From the NCBI GenBank assembly GCA_963576725.1, contig OY755240.1:34414620-34478619 (forward strand): a stretch of DNA of 64,000 nt, in the 5' to 3' direction. A program made the position numbers and the translations under genes. Below are positions 23,195 through 63,802 of this stretch, one piece after another. Positions within the stretch are counted from its first letter, which is position 1, and every line of letters starts with the position of its first letter. The notes below the pieces were generated by a model. The model was not told where the DNA came from, did not search any database, and saw nothing but the letters and a program-made list of their open reading frames with translations. The stretch is from Azorinus chamasolen (Eukaryota; Mollusca; Bivalvia; Cardiida; Solecurtidae).

Positions 23195-23234
23195 CATCGA
23201 TGAACACAATCAAAATGTTATTCAATCTTTAAAT

Positions 23235-24480
23235 GAGAGGGAGTTCATGCTTAGTTTAAAACCTGATACACAATCTGACATTGTTAGTGCTTTTAATAAA
23301 ACGTCTAGGTATTTAGACGATATTTTGAATTTGGATAATCCTTATTTTGAAAATAAGGTTTCGTCTAATTACCCAAAAGAACTTACTTTAAACAAAGCGA
23401 ACCAATCAGACATTCAATCTTCCTTTTTAGATTTGAATCTTTCCATCACTAATGATAAAGTTTCGTCTAAAATATACGATAAAAGGGAAGATTTCGATTT
23501 CAAAATTGTTAATTATCCTTCTCTAGATGGAGATGTTTCCCGGTCTACATCTTACGGGGTTTACATTTCTCAACTAATTCGCTTTGCCCGAGTCTGTTCT
23601 TTGCTAGAAGATTTTAATAGTCGTAAGTTAGTTATAATTCATAAACTTCTTAAGCAAGGCTACACAAATTCGGAAAGCTTTTTCAAAATTCTATTATCGA
23701 AATTTACCCCTCATTAGTAAATATAACTGCAATTTACTGACGTTACTGCAACAAGGTATTTCTCATCCAGATTTCTATGGTGATGTTATCTACAAACTAA
23801 GGAAAAATCGGGGTCATATCCATTTTCATGATTTGTTTATTAAACGCATTAAAACTTTTAGGAAGAAAGGTTATGACCCTATTATATTGCAACACACTGC
23901 TTGTTTGGTTATCGACCCCTTTACAGACGGTCGCTACGCTTTCCTCTTTGCTTGCACATTGACAGGCCGAGGGTAGTACTCTATGATGGTATACTCTTAA
24001 ACCCAGAAATAGGATGAGCTTACCAGACTCATGTATTACCTTTTCTCTGTCGTGCCCTTAAAGGCTTCCCTGCAGTTGCTCTGTCTTCAGCAAAGTCATT
24101 GAGTACATATTTGACGGACTTTCACAGTTGTTATGCTATGTTTTACATTTTGTACTGTGATTACTGTCGTCTATGTTGTGGGGAAGTCCGGCGGGGATAC
24201 CTTTTTTTTTTACTATGTTTGTTTAGCTAGGGTGACTGAGATAAGTGTGATGTTAGGACGTCCGAAAATTGGTTTAACCCCCCAGTGGTGATTTTGCTAC
24301 TGACCGTACCAAGGCGGTTCTCTCTTTGTCACCCTTAGTTTTGTTTGTCTTGTGTCTGTGCTTGTGCTTTGTTTATGTTTGTCTCTGGTGCTTGTGTATT
24401 TGTTGATGTTTTCTGTGTTCTTCTCGTGTGTTTGCGTGTGTTTGGTTGTGTATGTGTGCCATGCTGTCTATCGATGGTGG
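23235..24480 (+). mobile_element. Penelope-like element (Naiad type), 5'-truncated copy 1
   Basis: Carries the C-terminal half of an RT: EREFMLSL, then RYLDDILNLDNP (motif C, YLDD), FLDLNLSI, KIYDKREDFDF, and YGVYISQLIRFARVC. After a frameshift near 23660-23680 it continues through GISHPDFYGDVIYKLRK to FACTLTGRG and a TAG stop (23974-23976). It is colinear with the longer minus-strand copy at 50.8-54 kb, including the 3' UTR: GGTTTAAMCCCCC and TGACCGTWCCAAGGCGGT occur in both. The T-rich tail to about 24480 also matches that copy. No in-frame TGA falls in the retained part. The 5' end is truncated within the RT between motifs B and C. Confidence 0.85.
23983..24027 (+). promoter_or_regulatory. 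Candidate SECIS element, Penelope-like copy 1
   Basis: Starts six bases after the TAG stop. ATGA (23983-23986) opens a 10-position helix TGGTATACTC/GAGCTTACCA with eight Watson-Crick pairs. An apical loop has TT then AAA (23999-24001), then CCCAGAAATAGG forming a short upper stem, and GA (24026-24027) closes the quartet. These are the defining parts of a form-2 eukaryotic SECIS: AUGA/GA quartet, about 12 bases to AAA, and a mini-stem. It would direct UGA recoding to selenocysteine. The same structure follows the stop of the second copy. Confidence 0.65.
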
Positions 24481-29946: not shown

Positions 29947-32900
29947 CTAGTTGGCATCACCTCTGAACCAATTTGGTTTCCGCCTGACACGCTTGGAGCG
30001 TCGGGGTAAAACACCTGGCTTACCTGGCTGGCGTCTGTATGGTGGCACATAAACACCCGTTTCAGGCTCTTCAGAAGAGTCACTGGAACTGGTCTTATGG
30101 AATGGTTCTGACTCAGATTGAGGTGGAGGAGCTGAGTCTGACTGCTCATACAGGTTATCGGATTCGGAATCTGCAGGAATGGGAAGATGGCTGATGGGTA
30201 ACAGGTTATTTCTGTGTATGGTTTTCGTGTAGACACCATCCTCACTCCTTATCCTAAACACTGGGATATTAGGGTCTGGTTGTTCCGTGATTCGGTATAC
30301 TGTTTCACTCCAAACGTCTGCCAATTTGTGTTTTCCTTTAAATGCCAAATTCTTTACTAAAACACGATCTCCGGGTAAGAGTTTGGTTTCTTTGACTTTC
30401 CGGTCATAGTATTGTTTTGCTTTCTTTCCACTTCCAATTGCCTGTTTATTGGCGGTCTCGTATGCCTGTTTCAAATGGGATTCTAGGTCTTTCATATATT
30501 CAGATGGGATTGATCCGGAAAGCTTTTGGTGCTTGAGTCCGAGAACAGCGTCTATTGCAAGACGTGGTTTCCGGCCAAACATCAACTGGTACGGCGAAAA
30601 GCCCGTAGATGAATGCATAGTTGCATTGTATGCATGTACCAGTGATGGTATTGCAGATTTCCAATCTGTTTTCCTTTTGTTTGGTAACGTCCCCAACATC
30701 TGTATTAAGGTTTGGTTAAACCGCTCACATTGTCCATTTCCTTGAGGATGGTAAGCAGTCGTACGTGTACGCTTGATACCAGTTATCCTGCATAACCTCT
30801 GGATGACTTTCGAGAGAAAGTTCTGACCCCTGTCACTATGCAGCTTCTGAGGGAAACCATAGTGAACAAAGTAGTGGTCGAATAGTGCACGAGCTGTAGT
30901 TCTGGCAGTTTGGTTCCTAGTAGGAATGGCTTGCGCGTATCTAGTAAAGTGGTCAGTGATTACGAGGACGTTCTCAAAGCCGCCTTTGGAAGTCTCGAGA
31001 GACAAGAAATCAATGCACACCAGTTCCATCGGACCAGACGAACTGATGTTCACCAACTCTGCTCTTGTAACGGGCGATGTTTTCCGTCGAACACAGCGAT
31101 CACACTTTCGCACCCACCTTACCACATCGGCATTCAAGCCGGGCCAGTAAAATCTTTCTCTGAAAAGACTGATGGTTCTGTCTCTGCCTTGATGTCCCAG
31201 GTCATCATGAAGTGCCTTAAAAATGGTCTGTCTTGCTGATTGTGGAAGAACTACTTGGCTCACTGCTTCTTCTTTCAAATATGCTTTGTGTTTAAGAATT
31301 CCATTTTCCAAGAAAAGACGATCTAAATGTTTGAGATATTTGCGCACTTCAGATGGTTCCTTAAGCAAGTCAGACGTCGAAGGAGATGATCCAAGCGCTA
31401 CATATGCCCTAACTTTGTGTAGAATAGGGTCCGACTCCTGTCCACTCACCCAGTCTGTATCACTCAAAACGGCTGTGTAGTGTGGTTCAGCATTATGAGA
31501 AGGATGATCAAGCCCAGGGACATCAGTAGCCGGGCAATCTGATGCAGATGATCTATAGTGTCCAAGAAATGCCTTAACAACATCCTGTTCTACATTTTGA
31601 ACTTCAGTGTAAAGCAACTCGTCAGTACTCAGTTCCGGCTGAGGCTGTCTTGACAATGCATCTGCAGCAACATTCAGTTTCCCAGGTTGATAATGGAGCT
31701 TGAAGTCATAATTAGCAAGAGATGCAACCCATCGGTGACCACATGCATCCAGTTTTGCAGTACTCTGAACATAGGTCAGAGGATTATTGTCAGTATAGAC
31801 GTCGAACGGAACACCATACAAATAGTCGTGGAATTTATCCGTTATTGCCCATTTCAAAGCAAGAAATTCCAACTTGCTGGAGTGATAATTCCGCTCGGAC
31901 GGCTTGAGGCTTCTACTGGCATACGCTATGACACGATCAATCCCATCTTGCTCCTGATACAGGACGGCTCCAAGACCACTACTCGATGCATCAGTGTGCA
32001 GTTTAAAGGACTTTTTGTAGTCTGCATACGCTAACACTGGCGTCGTGATAAGCTTAGCTCTGATTTTATCAAAGGCGTCTTGTTGTTCTGTTTCCCATTT
32101 GAATTTAGAAGATTTTGCCTTTGTTTTCGAATTCTTTCCAGAGTTTCCAATAAGTAGATCATTAAGTGGTCGAACAATCTTTGAAAAATCTGCAATGAAT
32201 TTCCTATAATACCCAGCGAATCCTATGAAGCTCCTGACGTCCTTGATGTTCTTGGGAACTGGCCAGTTTTCAATTGCTTTGATCTTTTCAGGGTCTGCTT
32301 TGATACCATCTTTCGAAACTACGTGGCCTAAATAAGTGACTTCACTATGCATAAATTCACATTTGGATGCTTTCAATTTCAAATTATGAATCTTTAATTG
32401 TTTGAATACGGCTTCTAAACGTTCAAGATGTTCACTGACTGTTGAAGAAAAAATGATCACATCGTCCAGGTAAATCAAACATTTTCTCAGATTTAGCTCT
32501 CCCATACAACGCTCCATCAATCTCTGAAACGTAGCTGGTGCATTGCAGAGGCCAAAGGGCATGCGGTTGCATTCATAAAACCCCAGGCTACCCACTTGGA
32601 ATGCTGTCTTTTCTTTGTCCTCCTCTGCCATCTCAACTTGCCAGTATCCAGACTTCAAGTCAATTTTCGAAAACATTCGCGCTCCGGCAAGGAGGTGCAA
32701 TGTGTCATCAATACGTGGTAGTGCGTATGCATCCTTGTGCGTACGGGCATTCAATTTTCTGTAGTCAATACAGAATCTAATAGTCCCGTCCTTCTTCCGC
32801 ACGATGACAACATTTGATGCAAATGGACTTTGTGACGGCCTAATAGCTCCCATTGCTAACATCTCCTTCAAATGTTCACGGACCTCTTCTATTAAACCGG

Positions 32901-33918
32901 GAGGAACACGTCGGTATGGCTCTTTGAATGCTTCAGGTTGGTCTAACTTGATCTTATGTTTAACTAGGTCCGTGTTACCGATGTCCAAAGAATGTTGAGA
33001 AAATATGTCTTTCCACTTCCAAAATAAATCCTTTAATTTCTGAGCGTTATCTGAATTTAAATGATCTAAATTAACTTTGATGTTGTTCAAGAACTTTTCT
33101 TTATCCTTCGCTTCTGTTTCTTGCTTTTGAATTTGATCTTCCTCGGGAACCCAGTTTCTCAAAACTTTCGCCTCATGGAGTTCACAAATAGGAGTATTTG
33201 GTTGAATTGTTAAAACTTTCGCAGATGTGTTGAATATTCTTACAGGAACTCGAGCTGTTTTCCCAGGTTGGTCTAACTTAACCACTCTAGGGCATACCCC
33301 AATGCGTGAAGAAATCACTGTTGATGGTTCAGTAACTGCGGTTTGCTGATCTGTCATTTTACGTACAAGGCCTGATAAGGTTACTGTTTCAAATGGCTGT
33401 ACTTGTATGTTTTTCTTGTTTGTACTCTTGACTGTACCAAGACAGTTACTTGCGGAAATTGAATAGAGAGCTGATTTCCACTCATCAGGTAGCTTGTCCA
33501 CATCTACTGTTCTTAGAAACTTTATCACATTAGTTCCGATTACTAAGGGTACTTTAAGATTGTAGTCCGTGCTGTTCACTACAAGAACTGGAACGATATA
33601 TGTCTCATCGTTGATATAAGGTATTTGTATTTCCACCTCGATGTAACCTTTGTATGGAATGACGTTTCCACCTGCTCCTTTGAGTGATATATTTAACCCT
33701 TCTATACTATGTAATTCTGGTTGCGGCTGAAGTGTCTCATAAAAATCTTCACTAACAGATGTTATCATAGATCCGCTGTCAACGAGTGCTTTTGTTTGAA
33801 CTCCATTTAAATACACATCCGATTCGTTGGAGTAGCCTATGAGTCTATTCAAAAATGACGTATTTCTTTTCTTAGAAACGCTACTTTTCTTTGGGTCTTC
33901 TGCTTCGGTGTCATCCAT
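29947..33918 (-). CDS. pol: Ty3/gypsy Pol polyprotein (protease, RT, RNase H, integrase)
   Basis: Intact 1323-codon frame from ATG at 33918; the frame is also open upstream into the end of gag, so translation probably enters by frameshift. Domains in order: retropepsin with ALVDSGS (about residues 44-50); RT about 330-520 with IDYRKLN, KIDLKSGYWQ (motif A), MPFGLCNAP (motif B) and YLDDVIIF (motif C); RNase H about 610-740 starting KLHTDASSSGLGAVL; integrase zinc finger with H-H-C-C (LGHQGRD...CDRCVRR); DDE core (VCIDFLS, LHSDRGQNF, and GQCERFN with the Glu); then a GPY/F-like region (GDRVLVKN...HRNNLLPI). No chromodomain and no envelope gene. It copies element RNA into DNA and integrates it. 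Lineage within gypsy is not assigned. Confidence 0.95.
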   Translation of the reverse strand: MDDTEAEDPKKSSVSKKRNTSFLNRLIGYSNESDVYLNGVQTKALVDSGSMITSVSEDFYETLQPQPELHSIEGLNISLKGAGGNVIPYKGYIEVEIQIPYINDETYIVPVLVVNSTDYNLKVPLVIGTNVIKFLRTVDVDKLPDEWKSALYSISASNCLGTVKSTNKKNIQVQPFETVTLSGLVRKMTDQQTAVTEPSTVISSRIGVCPRVVKLDQPGKTARVPVRIFNTSAKVLTIQPNTPICELHEAKVLRNWVPEEDQIQKQETEAKDKEKFLNNIKVNLDHLNSDNAQKLKDLFWKWKDIFSQHSLDIGNTDLVKHKIKLDQPEAFKEPYRRVPPGLIEEVREHLKEMLAMGAIRPSQSPFASNVVIVRKKDGTIRFCIDYRKLNARTHKDAYALPRIDDTLHLLAGARMFSKIDLKSGYWQVEMAEEDKEKTAFQVGSLGFYECNRMPFGLCNAPATFQRLMERCMGELNLRKCLIYLDDVIIFSSTVSEHLERLEAVFKQLKIHNLKLKASKCEFMHSEVTYLGHVVSKDGIKADPEKIKAIENWPVPKNIKDVRSFIGFAGYYRKFIADFSKIVRPLNDLLIGNSGKNSKTKAKSSKFKWETEQQDAFDKIRAKLITTPVLAYADYKKSFKLHTDASSSGLGAVLYQEQDGIDRVIAYASRSLKPSERNYHSSKLEFLALKWAITDKFHDYLYGVPFDVYTDNNPLTYVQSTAKLDACGHRWVASLANYDFKLHYQPGKLNVAADALSRQPQPELSTDELLYTEVQNVEQDVVKAFLGHYRSSASDCPATDVPGLDHPSHNAEPHYTAVLSDTDWVSGQESDPILHKVRAYVALGSSPSTSDLLKEPSEVRKYLKHLDRLFLENGILKHKAYLKEEAVSQVVLPQSARQTIFKALHDDLGHQGRDRTISLFRERFYWPGLNADVVRWVRKCDRCVRRKTSPVTRAELVNISSSGPMELVCIDFLSLETSKGGFENVLVITDHFTRYAQAIPTRNQTARTTARALFDHYFVHYGFPQKLHSDRGQNFLSKVIQRLCRITGIKRTRTTAYHPQGNGQCERFNQTLIQMLGTLPNKRKTDWKSAIPSLVHAYNATMHSSTGFSPYQLMFGRKPRLAIDAVLGLKHQKLSGSIPSEYMKDLESHLKQAYETANKQAIGSGKKAKQYYDRKVKETKLLPGDRVLVKNLAFKGKHKLADVWSETVYRITEQPDPNIPVFRIRSEDGVYTKTIHRNNLLPISHLPIPADSESDNLYEQSDSAPPPQSESEPFHKTSSSDSSEEPETGVYVPPYRRQPGKPGVLPRRSKRVRRKPNWFRGDAN

Positions 33919-33938
33919 TTGACCCGCAATGGTGACTT

Positions 33939-36107
33939 TTACTGGTTTAAAGTTTGCTTCTTGTCTAACGTTTCTGTTCTCTGATCCATTCCTTCTCTGT
34001 AGCCGTATCCATTTCTTCTTGTACTTGATGATCCTCTTCTATACCCTCTACTATATCCTCTACCTCTTTCTCCAAAATTGGTATATCTTACCGGTTCTGT
34101 TCCACTTCTCTCGTGTGGTCCTTCTTGTGCCTTTGTTAATTCCTCTAATTTCTTATCCATACTTTCAATTTTCCTCATCAAAGTTTCGATGGCTTCATTT
34201 GTTGTCTTGGTATGCGTTTCTACCGCTGTCTGGTTGACCTTTCCCATTTTTGTTTTAGTGGTTGATCGATCTCGCTGAAGTTGGATTTCATATTCCTCTG
34301 CTCTAACTCTGTTTCTCAGTTCTTCATAAGGCATCTTACTTTCGAAGTGTACTCTTGTGGCTTGCTTCAATTCATCATTTTTCAAACCTCTCCAAAATCT
34401 TTTCTTTAGCATGGCCTTTCTATCTTCGCTGTCCATTCTGGATTTTCTTTCAATTTGAAGTACGAGTTCTTCAAGTCTTAGACTCCACTCTACTATTGAC
34501 TCTTCATTCTTCTGTTCTGCAAGTAAGAACTTGGACAGTAAACTATCTTCACTTGCTACATTGCCGAAAGTTTCCTCTAGATTCTGCATTATGTTTGATA
34601 CTGATGCTCCCGCTCCTAGGTGTAACATGACTTTCCTGGCCTGGTCTCTTAGAGATTTCCGTAAAGCTTGCTTCAAGACCTGTTCAGAATAGATTTCTCG
34701 TACGCTATCAAACTCAAGTTTGAACTCCTCAAATGATGCTTCATTCTTTGGCACGGGTTCCTTTCCAGAGAATGGCGTTAGATTGAGCTTTACACTTAAC
34801 GCGGCATTCCTCTCAGCCGGAGATTCGACTTTAACTTTCTCTGTTCGTTCACAGATCAATGCTCTCTGGTTTTGCAACTCCTTAATCCTTTCATCCAAAT
34901 CTTCTATATGCCCCTTCTGATGTCCTCTGTCCGATTCCTGTTTGAGAAAGTCGGCAGGTATACTGACTTCCTTCTTTGTTGGGTTGTACCTCTCAAACTG
35001 TTGGAAGTATTCCTCGGGACTTATCATTCTTTGCATTGGTCCATTCTCATCAAAGTGTGCAAACCTCTCATTTCTTTCCTCATTCGCATTATTTTCCCTT
35101 TTGATCTGTTCTGTAGTACAGCTTCTCCATGTCTCGCTCTTGTCTCTTAACGTTCTCTCCATATCTACAAACCTTTGCTCCATCTTCCTTTGTAACTCTA
35201 CCAATCTGTCTTCTTGGATCTGTAACTTCGTGTGTCTTTGTTTCAAACTTTCATCTATTTCTCTCTCACGAATCCTCATTTGTTGTTCTCTCTTACTCAG
35301 CACTTCTTCCTTACGCTCTAGCATAGAACTCCATTTCTCAAAATGGTCTTGCTGTGCTTTACTTTTGGTTTCAAATTCATCCATGTATGAATGTTTGCCT
35401 TGAAAACAAACATGTTCTTCAAGGTATCTGATGCTCTTCTCAAGCTCGCTTGTCTTCCTGGTTATATCTTCTTTGCTTTTGTTTGTTGGATCCGACATTC
35501 TCCTATTATCCTTAATTTGAGATTGGGGACCCTCAAGCTGTAACAGTTTCTCATCCAGTCTCATTTCCTCTAGTGTTAGGTTAAAGTCATCAAGTTTCCT
35601 TCCTACTTCATCTACAGTGATAAAGCTCTCCTCAATAACACCTGCTGGAGTATATAGACTTCCATCGTCGGTTGCAAAATTCACTTGATTCCTTTTCCTT
35701 TCTATCTCACTCAACCTCTCTCGTATCCGGTCCTCTTCTGCTAACTCGTTTTCGTTGAGGGTTACTGTTTCTTTCTCACGTGTTGTTTCCACCGTGTGTA
35801 TGTTGTCATGGTTTGTCTCACTGTGTGATCTATCTTGGTGCTCTAATGTCTGTAAAGGCTCCATGTCATCTACCTGTGTCATGTTAAGTCTACGTCTGCT
35901 TCTAATAATATCCTCTCTTTGTTGGCGGACAAGACGCAATTCATTATCTCTCTGGCGTCTCTCCTCGAGTTGCAATCTCCTAAGATTCATAGCATCCTGT
36001 AGATCTCTTGGATTCTCATCCCTTTGTAGTCTGGCTCGCCTTGTATCAATCGTCGAATGTCTGAGACGATATGGCGATCTACTGTTGTCTGCACCTCCTT
36101 CTGCCAT
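33939..36107 (-). CDS. gag: Ty3/gypsy Gag protein
   Basis: 722 residues, intact, ATG at 36107. The first 370 residues are highly charged and coiled-coil-like (RLQLEERRQRDNEL; RKEEVLSKREQQMRIRERE). A capsid-type Retrotrans_gag region follows at about 440-610 (VREIYSEQVLKQALRKSLRD; EESIVEWSLRLEELVLQI; RFWRGLKNDELK). There is no CCHC zinc knuckle; instead the C-terminus is Arg/Gly-rich (GERGRGYSRGYRRGSS), which could bind RNA. It forms the particle in which reverse transcription occurs. The stop lies 21 bases before the pol ATG, and pol is in the -1 frame. The coiled-coil N-terminal extension is long for a gypsy Gag. Confidence 0.9.
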   Translation of the reverse strand: MAEGGADNSRSPYRLRHSTIDTRRARLQRDENPRDLQDAMNLRRLQLEERRQRDNELRLVRQQREDIIRSRRRLNMTQVDDMEPLQTLEHQDRSHSETNHDNIHTVETTREKETVTLNENELAEEDRIRERLSEIERKRNQVNFATDDGSLYTPAGVIEESFITVDEVGRKLDDFNLTLEEMRLDEKLLQLEGPQSQIKDNRRMSDPTNKSKEDITRKTSELEKSIRYLEEHVCFQGKHSYMDEFETKSKAQQDHFEKWSSMLERKEEVLSKREQQMRIREREIDESLKQRHTKLQIQEDRLVELQRKMEQRFVDMERTLRDKSETWRSCTTEQIKRENNANEERNERFAHFDENGPMQRMISPEEYFQQFERYNPTKKEVSIPADFLKQESDRGHQKGHIEDLDERIKELQNQRALICERTEKVKVESPAERNAALSVKLNLTPFSGKEPVPKNEASFEEFKLEFDSVREIYSEQVLKQALRKSLRDQARKVMLHLGAGASVSNIMQNLEETFGNVASEDSLLSKFLLAEQKNEESIVEWSLRLEELVLQIERKSRMDSEDRKAMLKKRFWRGLKNDELKQATRVHFESKMPYEELRNRVRAEEYEIQLQRDRSTTKTKMGKVNQTAVETHTKTTNEAIETLMRKIESMDKKLEELTKAQEGPHERSGTEPVRYTNFGERGRGYSRGYRRGSSSTRRNGYGYREGMDQRTETLDKKQTLNQ
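33945..33951 (-). promoter_or_regulatory. Canonical -1 ribosomal frameshift heptamer between gag and pol
   Basis: On the minus strand the gag frame ends ACT TTA AAC CAG TAA. T TTA AAC is an X XXY YYZ slippery heptamer in the correct gag phase, six bases before the stop. A -1 slip gives TTT AAA CCA GTA..., which is exactly the open pol frame leading into the protease. A downstream stimulatory structure was not modelled. Confidence 0.75.
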
Positions 36108-41410: not shown

Positions 41411-43335
41411 AACAAGAGATGTTTGTAAAACATGTATACCCCCCCAGACCCCCTGACCTTTGATCTAGTGACCTCAACTATAGAGGTCATCTAGCGGTCA
41501 TGACTAATCACCACAGCAACTTTGAAAATCCTCAGCCAAACCACTGACTATAGGGGTCATCTAGTGGTCACGACCAACTACCACAGCAAGTTCGAAGATC
41601 CCGAACCAAACCATTGAGCAGTTATTAATTGGAAACCATTTCATCAGTTAAGGTCATGATGACCTTGACCTTTGACCTAGTGACCTCAAAATTAATAGGG
41701 GTCATCTAGTTGTCATGACCAACCACCACAGCAAGTTTGAAGATCCTAAGCCAAACCCTTGAGCAGTTATTGATTGGAAACCATTTCACCAGTTAAGGTC
41801 ATGGTGACCTTGACCTTTGACCTAGTGACCTCAAAAACAATAGGGGTTATCTACCTGTCATGACCAACCACCACAGCAAGTTTAAAGATCCTAAGCCAAA
41901 CCCTTGAGCAGTTATTGATCGGAAACTATTTCACCAGTTAAGGTCATGGTGACCTTGTCCTTTGACCTAGTGGCCTAAAAAACAACAGGGCTCATCTAGT
42001 TGTCATGACCAACCACCTAAGCAAATTTGAAGATCCTAAGCCAAACCCTTGAGCAGTTATTGATCAGAAACCGTTTTATAAGTTAAGGTCATGGTGACCT
42101 TGACCTTTGACCTAGTGACCTCAAAAACAATAGGGATCATCCAGTTGTCATGACCAACTACCGCAGCAAGTTTGAAGATTCTAAGCCAAACCCTTGAGCA
42201 GTTATTGATCGGAAGCCATTGAACCAGTTAAGAGCATGGTGACCTTGACCATTGACCTAGTGACCTAAAAAACAATAGGGTCATCTAGTGGTCATTACCA
42301 ACCACCACGGCAAATTTGAAGATCCTAAGCCAAGCCCTTGAGCAGTTATTGATCGCAAACCATTTCACCAGTTAAGGTCATGGTGACCTTGACCTTTGAC
42401 CTAGTGACCTAAAAAACAATAGGACTCTTCTAGTTGTCATGACCAACCACCTAAGCAAATTTGAAGATCCTAAGTCAAACCTTTGAGCAGTTATTGATCA
42501 GAAACCATTTTACCAGTTAAGGTCATGGTGACCTTGACCTTTGACCTAGTGACCTCAAAAACAATAGGGGTCATCCAGTGGTCATGACTAATTACCGCAG
42601 CAAGTTTGAAGATTCTAAGCCAAACCCTTGAGTAGTTATTGATCGGAAGCCATTGAACCAGTTAAGAGCATGGTGACCTTGACCATTGACCTAGTGACCT
42701 AAAAAACAATAGGGGTCATCTAGTTGTCATTACCAACCACCACGGCAAATTTGAAGAACCTAAGCCAAGCCCTTGAGCAGTTATTGATCGCAAACCATTT
42801 CACCAGTTAAGGTCATGGTGACCTTGACCTTTGACCTAGTGACCTAAAAAACATAGGACTCATCTAGTTGTCATGACCAACCACCTAAGCAAATTTGAAG
42901 ATCCTAAGTCAAACCTTTGAGCAGTTATTGATCAGAAACCATTTTACCAGTTAAGGTCATGGTGACCTTGACCTTTGACCTAGTGACCTAAAAAACAATA
43001 GGGGTCATCCAGTGGTCATGACCAACTACACTGCAAGTTTGAAGATACCAAGCCAAACCCTTGAGCAGTTATTGATCGGAAACTATTTTACCCTTTTAGG
43101 TCATGGTGACCTTGACCTTTGACCTAGTGACCTCAGAAACAATAGGGTCATCTACTTGTCATGACCAACCACCACAGCAAGTTTGACGATTCTAGGCCAA
43201 GTCATTTATTAGTTATCGTTCGGAAACCATCGATCTACCGACCGACCGACCGACCGACAGACCGACAGACCGACCGACCGAACGACCGACATGTGCGAAG
43301 CAATATACCCCCATTTTTTCAAAAGGAGGGTATAA
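41411..43335 (+). mobile_element. Helentron-like non-autonomous element, family A copy 1
   Basis: 5' end AACAAGAG, hairpin ATGTTTGTAAAACAT (41419-41433), then GTATACCCCCC. The core is about ten tandem units of roughly 175-180 bp with the recurring phrases GGTCATGGTGACCTTGACC, CCTAGTGACCTCAAAAACA and CCTTGAGCAGTTATTGATC. The 3' end has (GACC)n (about 43235-43290) and a hairpin TATACCCCC...GGAGGGTATA (43304-43334) whose right arm complements the 5' box. It encodes nothing. An inverted copy lies at 59021-60580. Confidence 0.8.
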
Positions 43336-47843: not shown

Positions 47844-50330
47844 TTAATTCGATATATTATTAAGATGTTTATTTCTTTTGTCTGTTGCACACTTTAAATA
47901 TAATGCTAATTTATACAAGATATCTTTATTTGCAGTTTTCATTAAACCGTTAAATTTAAAAACAGATGGTCTTTCATAATAACATATTTGTAGATATTTT
48001 TCTCTTACTTCTTTATAGAGAGGACAAATACAAATAAAATGATATGCGTCTTCAAGATCATGCATATTACAACATAAACAATATATTTCATGTCGTGGTA
48101 TGTGTACTCTTCCGAATCTACCGGTATGAATTCTTAAAGAATGTGCAGACAATCTATAGCGTGATATAAATAAACGTAAATCATACGGAAGTTTATCTAA
48201 ATACATTTCGTATATAAAATGTTCTTTGAAATGTTTATATTCGTCTAATACAGGACTTCGCTCAATAGCCGCTGACCACTCTTGGATGAAACAATCGACC
48301 ACTCGTTGTCTAAAAACTGAGTGAAATTTCGACACATCAATAATATCAACATTTGCAAATAAGTTGGAGAAGCCGTAATCATCTAATAACTTTTTAACAT
48401 TTGAAACCCAGTTTTTATAGCCTAATTGACAATCCTCCAATCCCAGTTCATACATTTTCTTTAAAATTATATTTTCAGATTTACAAACTTTACACCAATA
48501 CCTAACAATTCTACAGTAACGGGCAATGTATAATGGATATCTCGCTAATTCGCCATATACACCAACAGAACAACAAGTTGTACGTACATTAAGAAGACGC
48601 TTACAAAACTTTAAATGTATTCTCTCTAATTCTTTCGACTTCGTATACCCCCACACTTCAGAGGAGTAATTTAAAATCGATCCAACAAATGCATCGAATA
48701 ACTGGCATAAAACTTTTGGTTTAAGTGGGACTGTTTTACAATTAATAAATAGCGTATTTAGAGCTCTGAATGCTTTACCTATAAGGTGTTCATTATTCAT
48801 GCCAAAGCTTCCAGTATAGCTAAACACTGTGCCTAAGTAATTAAAATTATCTACTATCTCAACCTCCCTTCCATCATATACCCAACTTTCGTTTTGCAGA
48901 ACCCCACCCCTTTTACGAAAAACCATAATTTTTGATTTCTCAGCATTGACTTCCAGACCCTATTCTGTACAATAAGAGCGTAATAAATTCAAACTGTCTT
49001 GTAAATATTTTGGCGAATTACCTAACAGAGCCATATCATCTGCAAATAAAAATAAAATAAGAACAATCTCATTTATAGTAAGCCCCGAGTTAATATTTTG
49101 TTGTAGGAATAATTCTACGTCTTCCAGGAACAACGATACTAAAATTGGGGAAATTACCTCCCCTTGTCTGATTCCAATTGCATACTCTAAAATTTCAGAG
49201 AAACTATTACAGTGCTTAACACAGGATCTAATTTTTTCGTACATACTTTTTACTATCCGCAGTATCTTACCATCTATTCCACTCTTATACAATTTAAAAA
49301 TCAAACCATTTCTATAAATGCTATTGAAACACTTTTTCAGATCTATGAAAGCTACATACAGACGCTTATTGTGATTAAGATAGTGTTGAACCAGAGTATT
49401 TAGAGCGAAAATATCATCTGTTGTGGAGAAACCCCTTTTAAAACCAAACTGTGCATCAGAAATAGTACTATGCTTATCACAAAAATTCACAATTCGCTGG
49501 TTTAGAATCAGAGTAAATAATTTGGAAAGACAACTCAACAGTGTTATGCCACGATAGTTATTTACATTCTCTTTATCTCCCTTTTTATGTAATGGTACAA
49601 TAATCCTATCTCTCCACTGATCAGGAAAATAACCTGAATCTAATATAGCATTGAATATATCGCATATATATGGACATAAAATATCGATACTGTGTATAAA
49701 ATATTCATTCAGAAGGCAATCCAAACCAATGGCTTTATTAGCATTAAGTTTCTTCACAGCACTCTCAATTTCCTTAAATGTTACCTGGAAATCAAGATCT
49801 TCATTAAAATCATTATTATTAAAATCATAACTTTTAGAGAAATCCTCTGACTGCTGATTTGTATTTCTAAAAATATCATTTTCAAGATTAGAAAAATAGC
49901 CAAAGAATTCTTGTAGCGATATGTCAGCTTCAGATCTTGGGCTTCTTTTGTTAAAATATCTCCAAAAATCCTTTGGTTTGCAACGTCTTAAATTTTCTAT
50001 ATCCACTAACTTTTTTAGTTTGAATTGCCTCTTTTTTCTACGTATAATAATTTTGTAGTCAGATTTGCAGTCACACAAATATTTACGACTATGATCGGTT
50101 TTACACCGATTAAACATATGCAGAGCTTCAATGTATTTATTCTTTGCCCTTACACACTCAGTGTCGAACCATTCTTTATTATGAAACAATGTGTTTGTCC
50201 CAGTTTTTAACCTGCCTTTCGCACGCTTATTTTTAAAGAATAACGGATCCGCAACTTCTCGAATTAAAGTTGTTATATCCTGTATTGTGCGATTGATCGA
50301 TTCTTGACTTGAAGAATCAAAGTACAAAAA
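47844..50330 (-). pseudogene. LINE ORF2, RT and C-terminal part
   Basis: Begins near 50330 (SQESINRTIQDITTL) just after the Penelope-like 3' tail. RT features: FWRYFNKRSP; VPLHKKGDKENVNNYRGITLLS; AFIDLKKCFNSIYR (motif A); AIGIRQGEVISPILVSLFLEDV (motif B); LILFLFADDMALLG (motif C). A single TAG (48960-48962), where Trp would fit, separates this from the in-frame continuation (KIMVFRKRGG; NYLGTVFSYTG; NYSSEVWGY; KFCKRLLNVRT). The C-terminal domain ends in a Cys/His cluster (CLCCNMHDLEDAYHFICICP). An ATG-initiated reading from 50504 would include about 58 residues that are really Penelope-like 3' UTR. Confidence 0.9.
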
Positions 50331-50773
50331 TGAGTCATGCAGGAAACACCACATACAGAACAAACACTCGCCCGAACAGCAACACAAGGAAACAGCAAAT
50401 GTACATAGGTAGAAAAAACAACAAGAGACGCACAAAGACAAAACAAACATACAATAGGAGGAAGATGGAAGTACCGCCTTGGAACGGTCAGTGACAAAAG
50501 TCACCGGGGGTTTAAACCGGTTTATGGGCGCCCAACCTCACCCTTATTCCATCCCCATCCTAAAAGACAAACAGTGTAAATAAACGTATCCCCTCTCCGA
50601 CTAATCTACAACAACCGCGACAGCAAATACAGTGGTAAAGTGCATGTATAACAAAAACATTTAATTGAACATACTGTATCCACCTATCGCTAGTGTACTC
50701 AATGATTGAGCTGCAAACAGAGTAACTGTAGAAAAGTAATAAAGGGTACGACAAAAATGAAATAGTACAGATA

Positions 50774-50818
50774 TCCGACGTTCTCCTTCCATTTCTGGAT
50801 TTAAGAGGTCGCCTTCAT
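50774..50818 (-). promoter_or_regulatory. Candidate SECIS element, Penelope-like copy 2
   Basis: Minus strand, six bases after the TAG stop (50825-50827). ATGA (50815-50818) is followed by helix AGGCGACCTC/GAGAACGTCG, loop TT-AAA (50800-50802), and mini-stem TCC-AGAAAT-GGA, then GA (50774-50775). Seven of ten positions pair, including one G-U. The two central mismatches fall at the same positions as in copy 1. Two pairs changed on both sides (T-A to C-G and A-T to G-C). Loop lengths are identical. Confidence 0.65.
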
Positions 50819-50824
50819 AGAGTA

Positions 50825-53800
50825 CTAAACCTTTCTTGTCGGCGTACATGCAAAGAGGCCAGCGTGATTGCCAACTGTAAAAGGGTTCACAACCAAACAT
50901 GCAGTATGTTGTAGTAATACAGGATCATATCCCTTTTTAATGAATTGTTTTATATATTTGATGAACAAAGTGAGAAAATGGGTCCAATAATTTTACGAAG
51001 TTTGTAAATCACATCACCATAAAATTCAGGATGTGAAATACCGTGTCGCAAAAGTACCTTGAGATTACATTTGTACTTGCCAATAAGCGAGAGATTTCGA
51101 TAGTAAAATTTAGAGAAAGTTTTTCTTAGTTTATGGTATCTATATCCTTGTTTAAGCAGTTTTTCAGTTAAAATGAGATTTCGACTGTTAAAATCGTCAA
51201 TAGATGAACAAGCTCTAGCAAAACGAATAAGTTGAGATATATAAACCCCGTAAGATGGAGCACGGGGAACATCCCCGTCAAGATGAGGAAAATTTACAAT
51301 ATTAAAATCAAAATCATCTCTTTTGTCATATATTTTAGAAGAAATCATTCCATTATTAATTTTAAGGTCTAGGTCAAGAAACGCTGCATAATTGTCGGAC
51401 GGGTTAGCTTTATTCAATTTGAGTTCTTTAGGATAAATTGTAGGAATCAGAGCATCAAAGAAAGGGTTATCTAAGTTAAAAATATCATCCAAATATCGAC
51501 AAGTTTCATTGAAGGCTTTTATAACATCTTCTTGTGATTGAGGATTCAAACTCAACATGAAATCTCTCTCATAGCAGTACAAAAACAAATCTGCGACAAG
51601 TGGTGCACAATTCGTACCCATGGGAATACCAATTACCTGACGGTATATAGCATTCCCATAACGTACAAATATGTTATCCAAAAGAAAGGTTAGTGCTTCG
51701 CAAACTTCTGAGCAAGTCCAATTGGTGTAATATTTCATTTGCTCGTCAGTAAAGAAAGCTTTTTCAGCATTACATGCCAAGAATGATGTTTTTTCTCGGG
51801 CAAATACTTTCTGGATCAAGTTAGTAAGCTTATCCTTAATTAAAATATGAGGAAGAGTTGTGTACAGAGTAGAAAAATCGTACGTGCTTACAGTGGATGC
51901 AAGATACCTTTGTTCTGAAGTTTGTTTAAGACTTCTGAAGAGTTCTTAATACACCAGAAGAGATTTATTCCAGAATTTTCATAAGTCTTATCACAGTAAA
52001 ATTTTACATGTTCCTTTACCTTCGTTAAACAAGAAGTCAAAAGTATAGACAATTTAGTAGTTGTACATGAACTAGAATTTGCAATGAAACGCGCTTTATA
52101 TGGTTTTTATGTAGTTTTGGTAACCAATACATAGTAGGAAGTTTATGTTGTGTAATTTTAATATCGGTTCCAAATTGTTCACACTTTTTGACATGGTCTG
52201 AAATGATGGTCTTTTCGTCAGTGGTAACTGAAATGTATGACTTGGTATTAATAATTTCCTGCTTCAAGACATCGATATAATGTAATCGTCAAATAATAAT
52301 CACATTATTTGATGCCTTATCAGCAGGAACAAACACGTATTTTGAATGGAAATCCTGTAAACCCTTTTTAAGATGTCTAAATGAAGTTCTAGGTTTAGGT
52401 GGAAGAAGGTGTTTATTAGAGCTGTAAAAGGAAATGCGTTTATCAATTATATCAAAAATTAGTTTTTTCCAACAAGAAAGGGCATTAGACTCAACATGTT
52501 CTCTTCGACACCATTTAATACTAAAATTTTGTAAAGCCTCCGCAATCTGAAATCGACAAGAGTTAAAATCTATCAAGGATGGTATTCTATATTTGGGACC
52601 TTTATTCAACAGAGATCGTAGACGTTTATCTTTAATTATCTCAAAATTACCAGTAATCACGCGACCAGCCGGAGAATAGCAAAATTTTGAGGTGGCGCAA
52701 TCTCAATTATCAGGAATATTAAGGTCGGCCACAATTTTATTATAGTTGAAAATTGTATTTCTGATGGGTTTGTTATATTTGTAGCAGATGATAGGTGGTT
52801 CTGTATTTTTAAAGTATTTAGGAATAGTGTCAATTACATTTTTGTCTCTAAAAATACTTTGGAGGTCAATAAAATCAATACCTTTATTAATAAAAGGAAT
52901 TTTCAAGAAGAATCTTTGGTGTTCAGATAATTTGTCGATGTGCGGTCTGAGAACATGTAGAGTAAAGCTTTGTATCAAACTAGCCGTTCCTATGAGAGGA
53001 TCTGATCGAAAAATAATTTTATCGGCTTGCTCGTCAATTTCTTTTAATGAACATATAGATAAGGAGGAAAGTCTAGAAAGCATGGCATGTTTACCCGAAG
53101 TTAGGCGTAAAGTATGTAGATCAAGAAGAGTCATTTTCAAACGAAATTTTCGTTTAATAGTACCATTTTTGCGAATGCCATGCGATCGAGATTTGCGTTT
53201 TCTAATAGAAAAAATTGAAAAAATATCTATATCTGGTTCTTTTGAAATATTTCCAGTCTGGTAAATATTATCATTCAGTCCTAAAGGAAAAGGTGTTTGC
53301 AATTTTTTTTATCCAATTTAATTCAGATATAAATCTAGCTTTCGATTTAAAGCTACTAGTCGCCTCCTTATCATATGTAATATGCTCAACAATTTGTACT
53401 AAAACATCTTTAAAAGAATGGCCAGATTTCCGAAAGTGTTGGTATAAAAAATTGTTTAGTTTACGATTTCGACACTGATATGCATGCTCACGAAATCGAG
53501 TTTTCAAAGCACGTCCTGTTTGTCCTACGTACTGTATACCGCAACTAGGCGCGTTTCAAGTTAAAACATAAATAACGTTAGTAGTAGTACAATCAACGTC
53601 TGAGTTTATCTTGACATTAAATGTTCTACCATTAACTGTAGATTTTATAGTGGAATTACAAGAAATGTTACTACAACATATGCACCTCTTAGCAAAGCAC
53701 TTTTGGATAATTGGATACACTCTGTGTCGCCTGCATAAGGACCGTTTACGAATAGAAGAAACATTTTGGATAACAGATTTTAAAGGTGAAAGTACAACTC

Positions 53801-53999
53801 TTGGTCCATTGAAAAAACATTTATTAATAGAAAGAGATGGTATGTGAAAAGATGAAGCCGACTGAAGATTAAGTTGTTTTAAACGAACAAAAGGTTGAAG
53901 GGAAGAGAAATTAGAAATATTTCTGGGTACTTGTACAGACGACACAGATTGCATATTTAAAGCTTTTAGTTCTATTCGAGGTATTTTAACTTTATTCAT
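50825..53999 (-). pseudogene. Naiad-type GIY-YIG/RT protein with three in-frame TGAs, probable selenoprotein gene, frameshifted copy
   Basis: About 1050 codons. The endonuclease has VIYVLT-TGA-NAPSCGIQYVGQTGR, then RFREH and FRKSGH, giving the C-C-H-H set with TGA for the first Cys (53556-53558). The linker has PDN-TGA-DCATSKFCY, where the family's CxC motif has Cys (52703-52705). The next segment has ADKASNNVIII-TGA-RLHYI (52289-52291), again a Cys position. The RT has STYDFSTLYTTLP (motif A), VIGIPMGTNCAPLVADLFLY (motif B), CRYLDDIFNLD (motif C) and FLDLDLKI. No in-frame TAA or TAG occurs before the terminal TAG (50825-50827). Four frameshifts (an A8 run at about 53303, and near 52100, 51905 and 50985) make this copy inactive. 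With the SECIS downstream, the TGAs are best read as selenocysteine codons. Confidence 0.8.
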
Positions 54000-54269
54000 A
54001 TTGGAAAGTGATAGAGGGGCACCTGTATTGTGTTCATCAACACGTCAATTACATTAGTGTAGCTACCAAGTGCATCAAATTGTTGGTGAACACAACACCT
54101 ACCACGAGGTGCATGACATACTTATGATGATGTAAGAGGCGAATGAGAGTTGTGTATGTTACTTGCATATCCTGCAAGAGAATGATAACAACATCGATTA
54201 CGTGTACGGGGAGACTTTTTACGGCCACCACACGGCACAAGCAACACTGTTGTGATAATAGAAATATTA

Positions 54270-58888: not shown

Positions 58889-60668
58889 CACAGGTGCTAG
58901 GCGTGTGGCCATTTCACAAATACTGCTTATAAATACCTTCAAATACGTTTAGACATCATAACTTGACAGTATAAAAAAATGATTTTTTTTTATTTCGTAT
59001 AGTACATTTTTTTCATTTATTATACCCCCCTTTTGAAAAAATGGGGGTATATTGCTTTGCACATGTCGGTCGGTCGGTCTGTCGGTCGGTCGGTCGGTCG
59101 GTCGGTCGGTCGGTAGATCGATGGTTTCCGAATGATAACTAATAAACGACTTGGCCTAGAATCTTTAAACTTGCTGTGGTGGTTGGTCATGACAAGTAGA
59201 TGACCCCTATTGTTTTTGAGGTCACTAGGTCAAAGGTCAAGGTCGCCATGACCTAAAATGGTGAAATAGTTTCCGATCAATAACTGCTCAAGGGTTTGGC
59301 TTGGGATCTTCAAACTTGCTGTGGTGGTTGGTCATGACCACTAGATGACCCCTATTGATTTTGGGGTCACTAGGTCAAAGGTCAAGGTCACCATGACCTT
59401 AAATGGTTAAATGGTTTCCGATCAATAACTGCTCAAGGGTTTAGCTTAGAATCTTCAAACTTGCTGTGGTAGTTGGTCATGACCACTGGACCACCCCTAT
59501 TGATTTTGAGGTCACTAGGTCAAAGGTCAAGGTCACCATGACCTTAACTGGTAAAATGGTTTCTGATCAATAACTGCTCAAGGGTTTGGCTTAGGATCTT
59601 CAAATTTGCTGTGGTGGTTGGTCATGACAACTAGATGAGTCCTATTGTTTTTTAGGTCACTAGGTCAAAGGTCAAGGTCACTATGACCTTAAAGGGTGAA
59701 ATGGTTTGCGATCAATAACTGCTCACGGGTTTGGCCTAGGATCTTCAAATTTGCTGTGGTGGTTGGTAATGACCACTAGATGACCCTTATTGTTTTTTAG
59801 GTCACTAGGTCAAAGGTCAAGGTCACCATGCTCTTAACTGGTCAAATGGTTTCCGATCAATAACTGCTCAAGGGTTTGGCTTAGAATCTTCAAACTTGCT
59901 GCGGTAGTTGGTCATGACAACTGGATGACCCCTATTGTATTTGAGGTCACTAGGTCAAAGGTCAAGGTCACCATGACCTTAACTTGTAAAATAGTTTCTG
60001 ATCAATAACTGCTCAAGGGTTTGGCTTAGGATCTTCAAATTTGCTTAGGTGGTTGGTCATGACAACTAGATGAGCCCTATTGTTTTTAGGTCACTAGGTC
60101 AAAGGTCAAGGTCACCATGACCTGAACTGGTGAAATGGTTTGCGATCAATAACTGCTCAAGGTTAGGCTTAGGATCTTCAAACTTGCTGTGGTGGTTGGT
60201 CATGACCAATAGATAACCCCTATTATTTTCGAGGTCACTAGGTCAAAGGTCAAGGTCACCATGACCTTAACTGGTGAAATGGTTTGCGATCAATAACTAC
60301 TCACGGGTTTGGCTCAGGATCTTCAAACTTGCTGTGGTGGTTGGTCATGACCACTAGATGACCCCTTTTGATTTTGAGGTCACTAGGTCAAAGGTCAAGG
60401 TCACCATTCCCTTAATATGTGAAATGTTTTCAGATCAATAAATGATCAGTGGTTTGGCTTAGGATCTTCAAAGTTGCTGTGGTGATTAGTCATGACCGCT
60501 AGATGACCTCTATAGTTGAGGTCACTAGATCAAAGGTCAGGGGGTCTGGGGGGTATACATGTTTTACAAACATCTCTTGTTTTTATACTGTCAAGTTATG
60601 ATGTTTCAACGTATTTGAAGGTATTTATAAGCAGTACTTGTGAAATGGCCGCACGCCTAGCACCTGTG
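58889..60668. repeat. Inverted repeat flanking a Helentron-like copy
   Basis: 58889-58975 and 60583-60668 are reverse complements at over 90 percent by eye (GCTAGGCGTGTGGCCATTTC..., TGCTTATAAATACCTTCAAA, ACTTGACAGTATAA). The Helentron-like element fills nearly the whole space between them. Confidence 0.85.
59021..60580 (-). mobile_element. Helentron-like non-autonomous element, family A copy 2
   Basis: Inverted copy of the 41411-43335 family. On the plus strand: hairpin TATACCCCCCTTTTG...GGGGGTATA (59021-59051), (GGTC)n, about eight units of 175-180 bp, then GGGGGGTATAC, ATGTTTTACAAACAT and CTCTTGT (60574-60580). It has fewer core units than copy 1, so unit number varies within the family. 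Confidence 0.8.
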
Positions 60669-61412: not shown

Positions 61413-63802
61413 TTAGACGGGTGGATAATTATCATAACCGAACATTTCGAAATCGAAGCGGTAGTAATTCTGGAGTGCTTCTAACTGGTCTGTGGACAGC
61501 TGTCGATAAGCGTCTTTTAGCGCTTGTTTGCGAAATGCTTTCTTTGTTGTTTTATTGGCACTACTGCGTTTACGGGCAGAGCGAACCATGGCCACCATTG
61601 TCACCGTACTAATGTTCTCCGTGTTCGGATGAATCAGGAACTCATCACCGGGTTGCAGATATCCATTTAATTTCATTGCTGTCCAAATTCGTTTGGCCAG
61701 TTCAAATTTTATAATACATTTTGATCGTGCGCGATACAATCGAAAATTGTAATCAATTTCAGTTTTGATTTCGAACTCGTCCTGGTCTAGTTCAAGTGCT
61801 GGTTGTTCAGTTTGCAACAAATCTACATAATCTAACACGTACTTAAAGTCAGATAAAAATGTTTCTTGTTTCATGATAAAATATGGCTTGAATATACATG
61901 GGTCACATATTTGTGTAATTGGTAACCAATGATTGTCCATATCCCAGGATATATAATGTCCTTTCGTTAACACGTACCGTACGAACTCTGGAAATGTGAC
62001 GTCATTGCCACAACTTTTAGCAAGACTTGTAGCATTGTTTCGAACTGACTTAATGATATCTTTTCCTTTACCGAACCAGAAGTCAGGAAGGAGTAACTTG
62101 TCGATATAGGCTGACCATAGTCTTGTATACGGATCTCTTGCGGTCAATACCCGTACAGCTCTGCTAATAAACGCGATGTCTTTACCGGTGAAGTTAAACC
62201 TTTTAAACTTCCTACCTGATGGGAAAAATATGTCGAACTTTGAGTAGGCAGTGATGGGCTTGTTAGACAAATCTTTGTTGTTTAGGTATGTGAAAAGACG
62301 AAGCCAAATTGAACATGCAGCTTTAGGCACCACACATAATGTCACATTAGCTGGGACGTGCCCAGCTACTTTTGCTACGTAGTTCTGTGGCATGGTTGAA
62401 GAAGAACATTTCTTTTCAATCAATAAACGTCGATTGGAAAATCTCAACGCGACGTCGTGTTCGGCTTTAATGGCGTCCTGAAAAGTAATTGCGAAAATAA
62501 TTGATAATTGATAAAGATATATTTATGTTTTATTAGAATATAGAGGAATTATAGTTGTACCCATTTTAACCCATTAACTCTTAGGCTATTTTAGACCCAC
62601 CCTATTTGAATAAATCTAGTGAAAAAGAGTATTTACTAGAAATTATAGAAAAAATTGTGTAGTTTTTAAATCATTGTGATAAATAGAGCATTTGCTCCAA
62701 TGAAGCAAAAGGTCTATCTATCACAATGGTTTCAAAAACTAGACTTTTACAAAGGCGCCAAAAAGGCATCGACATGAAGGAATGTGTTAACACTGTTTGA
62801 ATATTGGACTAAACTATCCGTTCACCTTATAAGTACGGAGTGATATAGAATTGATTCTACAGATTCTGTCATGGACAAGCATTTCTGTGTTGTTCTCTAG
62901 CCGTATTTGACTGGGCCTGTAAGCAACAAAAACAATTCCCAATCGAATACATTACACGTTGAGCAACGAAAAAAATCATGCAACGCGGGTTGAAAACCGT
63001 TGAGATTAGTCGTATTCGACTGGGCTTTTTCTTGCTATTCTGTCACATAAACGTCTCCCACCTGTTGATTTCAACCAATCAAATTATAATTTATGAATTA
63101 ACTTTACCTTGCATTACTCCACAATCTAAACGGTTTCAACCCGCGTTGCATGATTTTATTTCGTTGTTCAACGTGAACTGTATTCGACTGGGAATTGGTT
63201 TCGTTGCTTATTGATACAGGCCCAGTCGAATACGGCCATTGTTGAGTAACGCAAGGTAAACTATCAACTATAATTTGATTGGTTGAATTTAATAGGTGGG
63301 AGAAGTTTATGTGACGGAATAGCAAGAAAAAACCCAGTCAAATACGGCTACTGTTTAAGTAATATTCACATACTGTATAACATGTCTACAGAGATTTTTA
63401 AAGTAGGTCTAGTTCTTGGGGGTTATGAGCTTAATGTATTTATGCAGAAAGCTCCTCTAGGAAGTTTGTACATTAAGCAACCAACTGCCCTTATCGAACT
63501 CCATATGTATTCGTTATATGATGGCTATAAGCTATATGGTGGCTAATATGGTGGCTATAAGCATGTTATATGGTGGCTATAAGCACGTTCTATTGTATCT
63601 GACTGTGCTTCTCGCATAATGGATAAAAGGTAAATGAAAAAAAGAATACCATCGGAACGGACTCTAATGCCGAAAATGTCATCACCTTTAGGTCGTCTGT
63701 CGTTAGTAACGTGGAGTATATGTAAACTCCTATAAGGACCAGAAACGTCATCACAATCAGACAATAGATGTGACATTTCCTCAGCTTGGAATAGTAAGAC
63801 AT
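61413..63802 (-). CDS. Carbohydrate sulfotransferase (HNK-1/CHST8-14 family), two coding exons
   Basis: Exon with ATG 63686-63802 (39 codons), then intron 62478-63685 (AAG|GTGATG ... TTTTCAG), then exon 61413-62477, both in phase 0, giving about 393 residues. The first exon follows TTGTTTCAG directly before the ATG, so a 5' UTR exon lies beyond the window. Residues 1-11 are basic/cytoplasmic; 12-29 (IYCLIVMTFLVLIGVYIY) are a signal anchor, so this is a type II Golgi protein. Catalytic part: VVPKAACSIWLRLF (5'-phosphosulfate loop) and VLTARDPYTRLWSAYIDKLL (3'-phosphate site with Arg and Ser); then FPEFVRYV...DNHWLPITQICDPC and a conserved-type YFIMKQETFLSDF. It transfers sulfate from PAPS to glycan chains. 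Substrate cannot be told. The small exon is joined by phase and topology, and a further exon between is possible. Confidence 0.85.
62900..63348. repeat. Interleaved inverted repeats A-B-A'-B' in the sulfotransferase intron
   Basis: A (62900-63001) is the reverse complement of A' (63129-63237), and B (63011-63120) of B' (63242-63348). Every outer end reads GCCGTATTYGACTGGG or its complement. The two inverted repeats overlap rather than nest. No gene is inside. Confidence 0.85.

Follow-up and report, generated by a model that had tools for sequence, protein, structure and literature searches.

What do three in-frame TGA codons mean in the reading frame of a damaged retroelement of the bivalve Azorinus chamasolen? 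The window (the whole stretch of 64,000 nucleotides that was analyzed) carries on its minus strand the open reading frame (ORF) of this element (50828..53999), which comprises 1063 aa in intact copies and is broken here by four frameshifting indels. An earlier note had proposed that the TGAs are selenocysteine (Sec) codons, fossilized in a copy of a Naiad-type Penelope-like element (PLE) that was later damaged. The feature is very probably a frameshift-damaged Naiad-type Penelope-like retrotransposon, the intact relatives of which encode a 1063-residue predicted selenoprotein.

Architecture of the element and position of the TGA codons

The ORF encodes an N-terminal GIY-YIG endonuclease, a CxC linker, and a C-terminal telomerase-like reverse transcriptase (RT), which is the domain order of Naiads and agrees with the earlier assignment. 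The endonuclease piece of the window copy matches the GIY-YIG family (Pfam ID PF01541) with 23.8 bits (cut-off, 22.6), and the same family is present in several long homologues. The full-length ORF of the intact copy L016 returned no Pfam family, though the endonuclease piece alone passes the cut-off. Residues C148, C153, H172, H188, and H194 are conserved and account for the C-C-H-H set of the endonuclease, with the candidate ligand histidines among the three. In the linker, C436 is found in 80 and C438 in 85 of the 88 homologues that have a letter there. Searches by sequence against solved structures gave no match to the protein. No hammerhead family is present among the 21 Rfam matches in the window up to an E value of 10, as is typical of Naiads. 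Further features of Naiad-type PLEs include an insertion-in-fingers domain and an insertion bias for microsatellites.

The element extends beyond the region noted earlier and forms a single unit at about 50319-54260 (minus strand). Its limits were set by comparison with 20 other copies and by the head-to-tail junction, in which the element end is joined to the element start. This junction is the same in all 7 copies inspected, consistent with the pseudo-LTR/tandem arrangement of Naiad-type PLEs, and tandem arrays of the element have a spacing of 3961 to 3962 bases. The unit sits inside a LINE with an endonuclease-like ORF (55213-54122) and an RT ORF (50543-48960), both on the minus strand and both with frames that extend slightly into the PLE. 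No target-site duplication was seen by eye in the flanks inspected. An exact search for the first bases of the window copy found no match in other copies, because the copies differ there.

The three TGAs lie on the minus strand, exactly where they had been placed before. The one at residue 148 (53556..53558) takes the place of the first Cys of the C-C-H-H set and ends the model strand 142-148; the one at residue 436 (52703..52705) replaces the first Cys of the CxC linker; and the one at residue 574 (52289..52291) replaces the Cys of an NNxxxxC[KR] motif and ends the model strand 566-574. The claim that the frame blocks 53999-53271 and 53302-52037 stay open except at TGA was borne out, and the TGA that closes each block falls in a frameshifted tail, outside the true frame. 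Residue 137, located at 53589..53591 (minus strand) when counted from residue 148, is encoded by TGT (Cys) in the family of the window element (family A) and by TGA, a predicted fourth Sec codon, in a sister family (family B).

Database searches found 331 related proteins, the best 120 of which were used for residue counts. Among the homologues aligned at each site, Cys occupies residue 148 in 39 of 41, residue 436 in 90 of 99 (with 4 Trp and 5 Pro), and residue 574 in 107 of 115 (with 8 Trp), so the TGAs indeed stand at conserved Cys positions, as had been claimed. In the 1063-codon frame, they fall on 3 of the 13 columns that have Cys in at least 80% of the homologues with a letter (counted only where at least 20 homologue letters are present); the chance that three random codons would all hit those 13 columns is about 2 in a million. 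In an alignment of the query with 92 of the 120 homologues (28 were left out by choice), columns 436 and 574 are the sole Cys-majority columns that contain any Trp. These Trp residues are found in relatives with 49 to 64% identity and are probably TGA codons that gene callers rendered as Trp. Some other close relatives have Cys, among them P0001, with Cys at both 436 and 574.

The SECIS element and the host Sec machinery

The ORF ends with a TAG stop codon (50825..50827, minus strand), the A and G of which open the basal helix of a SECIS element with an AUGA ... AAA ... GA core (50764..50826, minus strand). The match to SECIS_1 (Rfam ID RF00031) starts with the A of the stop codon (50826) and scores 26 bits (E value of 0.01 in 701 nt) against a gathering score of 35. 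No other SECIS match is listed for the window up to an E value of 10, and in that whole-window search this one has an E value of 0.94; at the gathering threshold, Rfam finds nothing in the window. Seven of the nine loci scanned have a SECIS match up to an E value of 1, the two loci without one being L012 and L018. In L020, the match is in a neighboring fragment only, and its own stop is followed by an altered AUGA. A fragment of a third family (family C) in locus L011 scores 36.3 bits, above the Rfam cut-off, and one of two family-B loci, L029, scores 23.2 bits, with no match in the other, L030. Thus, the SECIS search suggested in the earlier note did yield matches downstream of the frame, above the cut-off in a family-C fragment and below it in families A and B.

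The window also contains, at 23233..24361 on the plus strand, the 3' part of a diverged relative of the element (family D; 68% DNA identity). A SECIS-like core follows its stop at about 23974; Rfam does not list this core among the matches in the window up to an E value of 10.

Between families, the SECIS has changed in a compensatory manner. Across nine sequences of families A to D, 86.4% of the pair cells are standard pairs, compared with 34 to 49% when the pairing is slid; a two-sided change in 15 cells and a covariation score of 0.335 versus 0.216 were each reached in 0 of 500 shuffles, although the shuffle tests flatter these three of the five measures because the sequences are related. 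The other two measures do not stand out: there are 6 pairs with change on both sides versus 4.8 in shuffles (138 of 500) and 12 further pair types versus 13.8 (484 of 500). The final base of the stop codon takes part in a pair that is A-U in family C, with its TAA stop, and G-C or G-U in the sequences that end in TAG. Fold z-scores are -3.2 and -3.7 for two family-A sequences, -3.2 for family B, -1.9 for family C, and -1.8 for family D.

The host genome contains a tRNA-Sec gene with one strong match (80.7 bits, anticodon tca), and two more tRNA-Sec matches are just above the cut-off. The SECIS would recruit the Sec machinery of the host, and each UGA would be decoded as Sec. In the predicted endonuclease/RT, the Cys/His cluster of the endonuclease would contain one Sec in family A and two in family B, and the CxC linker and the RT would each contain one more. 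The conserved groups C101-C106-C109-C137, C148-C153-H-H, and C436-C438-H450-C574 might conceivably bind metal or act in redox chemistry, with Sec instead of Cys serving either as a ligand or as one partner of a selenenyl-sulfide pair.

UGA is the leakiest stop codon. It might be read by a near-cognate tRNA without any Sec, perhaps for the sake of several shorter products, and several inefficient codons in one frame would yield a ladder of truncated products. Such a readthrough is nevertheless quite improbable here, as all four positions are conserved Cys positions, a covarying SECIS is found at the stop, and the host has a tRNA-Sec gene.

Conservation of the TGA codons among copies and families

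Family A is very abundant in the genome (1.72 Gb in 137 contigs searched). The 20 copies that were compared with the window copy were those in rows 2 to 21 of the best 40 scored among 2627 candidates; their main aligned stretches are 98 to 99% identical to the window copy. Both these copies and the scored matches come from the top of the score ranking and are biased toward young copies. When TGA is read as sense, one frame runs for 1081 codons in six of the 20 (L009, L016, L018, L019, L020, and L027), free of TAA and TAG and with TGA at the three sites. A further TGA precedes the first ATG in five of these six, and L020 has its first ATG 15 codons downstream of where the other open-frame copies have theirs. 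When the window copy is included, TGA is found at residue 148 in 16 of 16 aligned copies and at residues 436 and 574 in 21 of 21 each, whereas residue 137 is TGT in 16 of 16 aligned family-A copies. Only one further in-frame stop, a TAA in L021, is seen in the entire set.

Exact-flank patterns gave a similar picture in the whole genome. The patterns for sites 148, 436, and 574 match 689, 1190, and 1881 places, with TGA in 99, 100, and 97 of the first 100, respectively, so that the three sites are nearly uniform, as the check put forward in the earlier note had anticipated. That note had also named a TGT/TGC family consensus, or TAA/TAG in other copies, as outcomes that would contradict it; neither was observed. 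At site 574, TGT or TGC is found in 8 of the 1881 places, and TAA is only sporadic, seen among the first 100 places once at site 574, once at site 148, and never at site 436. Four of the 8 Cys codons belong to one tandem array (G000:C18:57989923-58001840), in which all four copies have TGT at site 574 with a spacing of 3961 to 3962 bases. Two protein queries of the Cys type retrieved 48 and 46 scored frames, partly from the same places, and in all 48 and all 46 of these TGAs are the only in-frame stops, three in each frame and four in one copy. Accordingly, no Cys-type Naiad family appears among the best 48 of 30008 and the best 46 of 30568 candidates.

Family B is represented by L029, an open frame of 1063 codons from the ATG with about 70% protein identity to family A. 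It has TGA at 148, 436, and 574 and, in place of the TGT of family A, a fourth TGA at 137. The family-B pattern at site 137 matches 680 places, the first 100 of which comprise 99 TGA and one TTA; the broken family-B copy L030 does not extend to this site. Over the whole frame, the comparison of family A with L029 gives a dS of 1.55 and a dN of 0.22 (ratio, 0.14). The ratios after the TGAs are 0.08 (residues 149-435), 0.21 (437-573), and 0.13 (575-1063), indicating that the protein past each TGA is kept by selection. The frame past each TGA is thus under purifying selection, a reading that rests on the comparison with L029 instead of the short fragments, which gave ratios of 0.5 to 0.8. In one further locus, L012, a long open frame combines a 5' part of family A with a 3' part that resembles family B, which suggests template switching.

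These data bear on the view that the TGAs arose by simple nonsense mutation of Cys codons in dead copies. The window copy is indeed broken, in line with the frameshift damage proposed in the earlier note: compared with one intact copy, it has the four frameshifting indels and one in-frame deletion. However, the same three TGAs are present in long open frames and in nearly all of the listed genome places, they recur in a sister family at a dS of 1.55, and the codons do not vary freely among TGA, TAA, TAG, and TGY. With TGA conserved at 148, 436, and 574 in both the codon counts and the pattern listings, nonsense decay was rejected as very improbable. An altered nuclear code with TGA as a sense codon, for which nothing was found in favor, was likewise rejected and is the least credible explanation of all, as a 1323-aa pol-like ORF in the window is open under the standard code and therefore holds no TGA, and within the element TGA is confined to Cys positions.

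Interpretation of the TGAs as Sec codons is therefore favored by TGA conservation, the SECIS, the tRNA-Sec gene, and selection past every TGA, all of which are sequence-based. The description of these codons as fossilized applies to the frameshifted window copy and does not hold for the family, which keeps intact copies. A more tentative proposal is that Sec is actively retained as better than Cys in the enzyme, that the overlap of the stop codon with the SECIS may couple termination to Sec decoding, and that retrotransposition might be selenium dependent. This proposal, which we consider possible but rather doubtful, draws on the replacement by Sec of ligands of the putative metal or redox sites, on the Cys/Sec swap at 137 between families, and on Cys revertants that arise without spreading (counted at site 574 only).

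Relation to known systems and other features of the window

Naiads were reportedly described by Craig et al. in 2021, with Sec-containing ones in clams and spiders. The element shares with the Naiad clade the GIY-YIG domain before the RT, the CxC linker, the tandem junctions, the absence of a hammerhead match, and multiple in-frame UGA codons at Cys positions; in these respects, it belongs to an already known kind, the Sec-coding Naiads. Among the titles and abstract openings listed in a literature search, none dealt with Sec in Penelope-like elements. No published counterpart was found for the stop/SECIS overlap, the Cys/Sec exchange at 137 between two abundant families of one genome, or the rare Cys revertants at 574, though the published Naiad work may already describe them.

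Canonical Penelope/Poseidon PLEs, with the domain order given in PMC11167929, also combine an RT with a GIY-YIG endonuclease. In contrast to them, the window element has the endonuclease first and carries predicted Sec codons. Among host proteins, the multi-Sec selenoprotein SELENOP shares the decoding of several UGAs as Sec, which is predicted for the element. Unlike SELENOP, the element encodes a mobile-element enzyme with predicted Sec in the nuclease, linker, and RT, and its SECIS starts within the stop codon.

A single genome here has 1881 matching places for one predicted Sec codon of a multi-Sec retroelement, the intact frames are under selection, and one Cys/Sec exchange separates the sister family from family A. 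The question of why a selfish element would use an inefficient codon three or four times thus becomes directly testable. The data suggest that most in-frame Sec codons of this genome belong to transposons, which, if so, would have consequences for selenoprotein annotation and selenium biology.

The window contains several other repeats and ORFs. A large inverted repeat at 17213-19780 has arms (17213-17688 and 19305-19780) that are 87% alike; miRNA-family-like matches in it are far below their gathering scores. An LTR (Ty3/gypsy-like) element at 29947-36107 (minus strand) has two long open ORFs, one pol-like, with RT, RNase H, integrase, and protease matches, and the other PNMA/gag-like. A 145-bp tandem repeat forms two large arrays, at 41550-43230 and 59151-60539, which lie in opposite orientations and are roughly 84 to 91% alike. 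On the minus strand, an ORF at 45585-46316 matches the ISXO2/IS1595-like DDE transposase, and an ORF at 61413-62447, perhaps a host gene, has a strong match to the sulfotransferase family Sulfotransfer_2.
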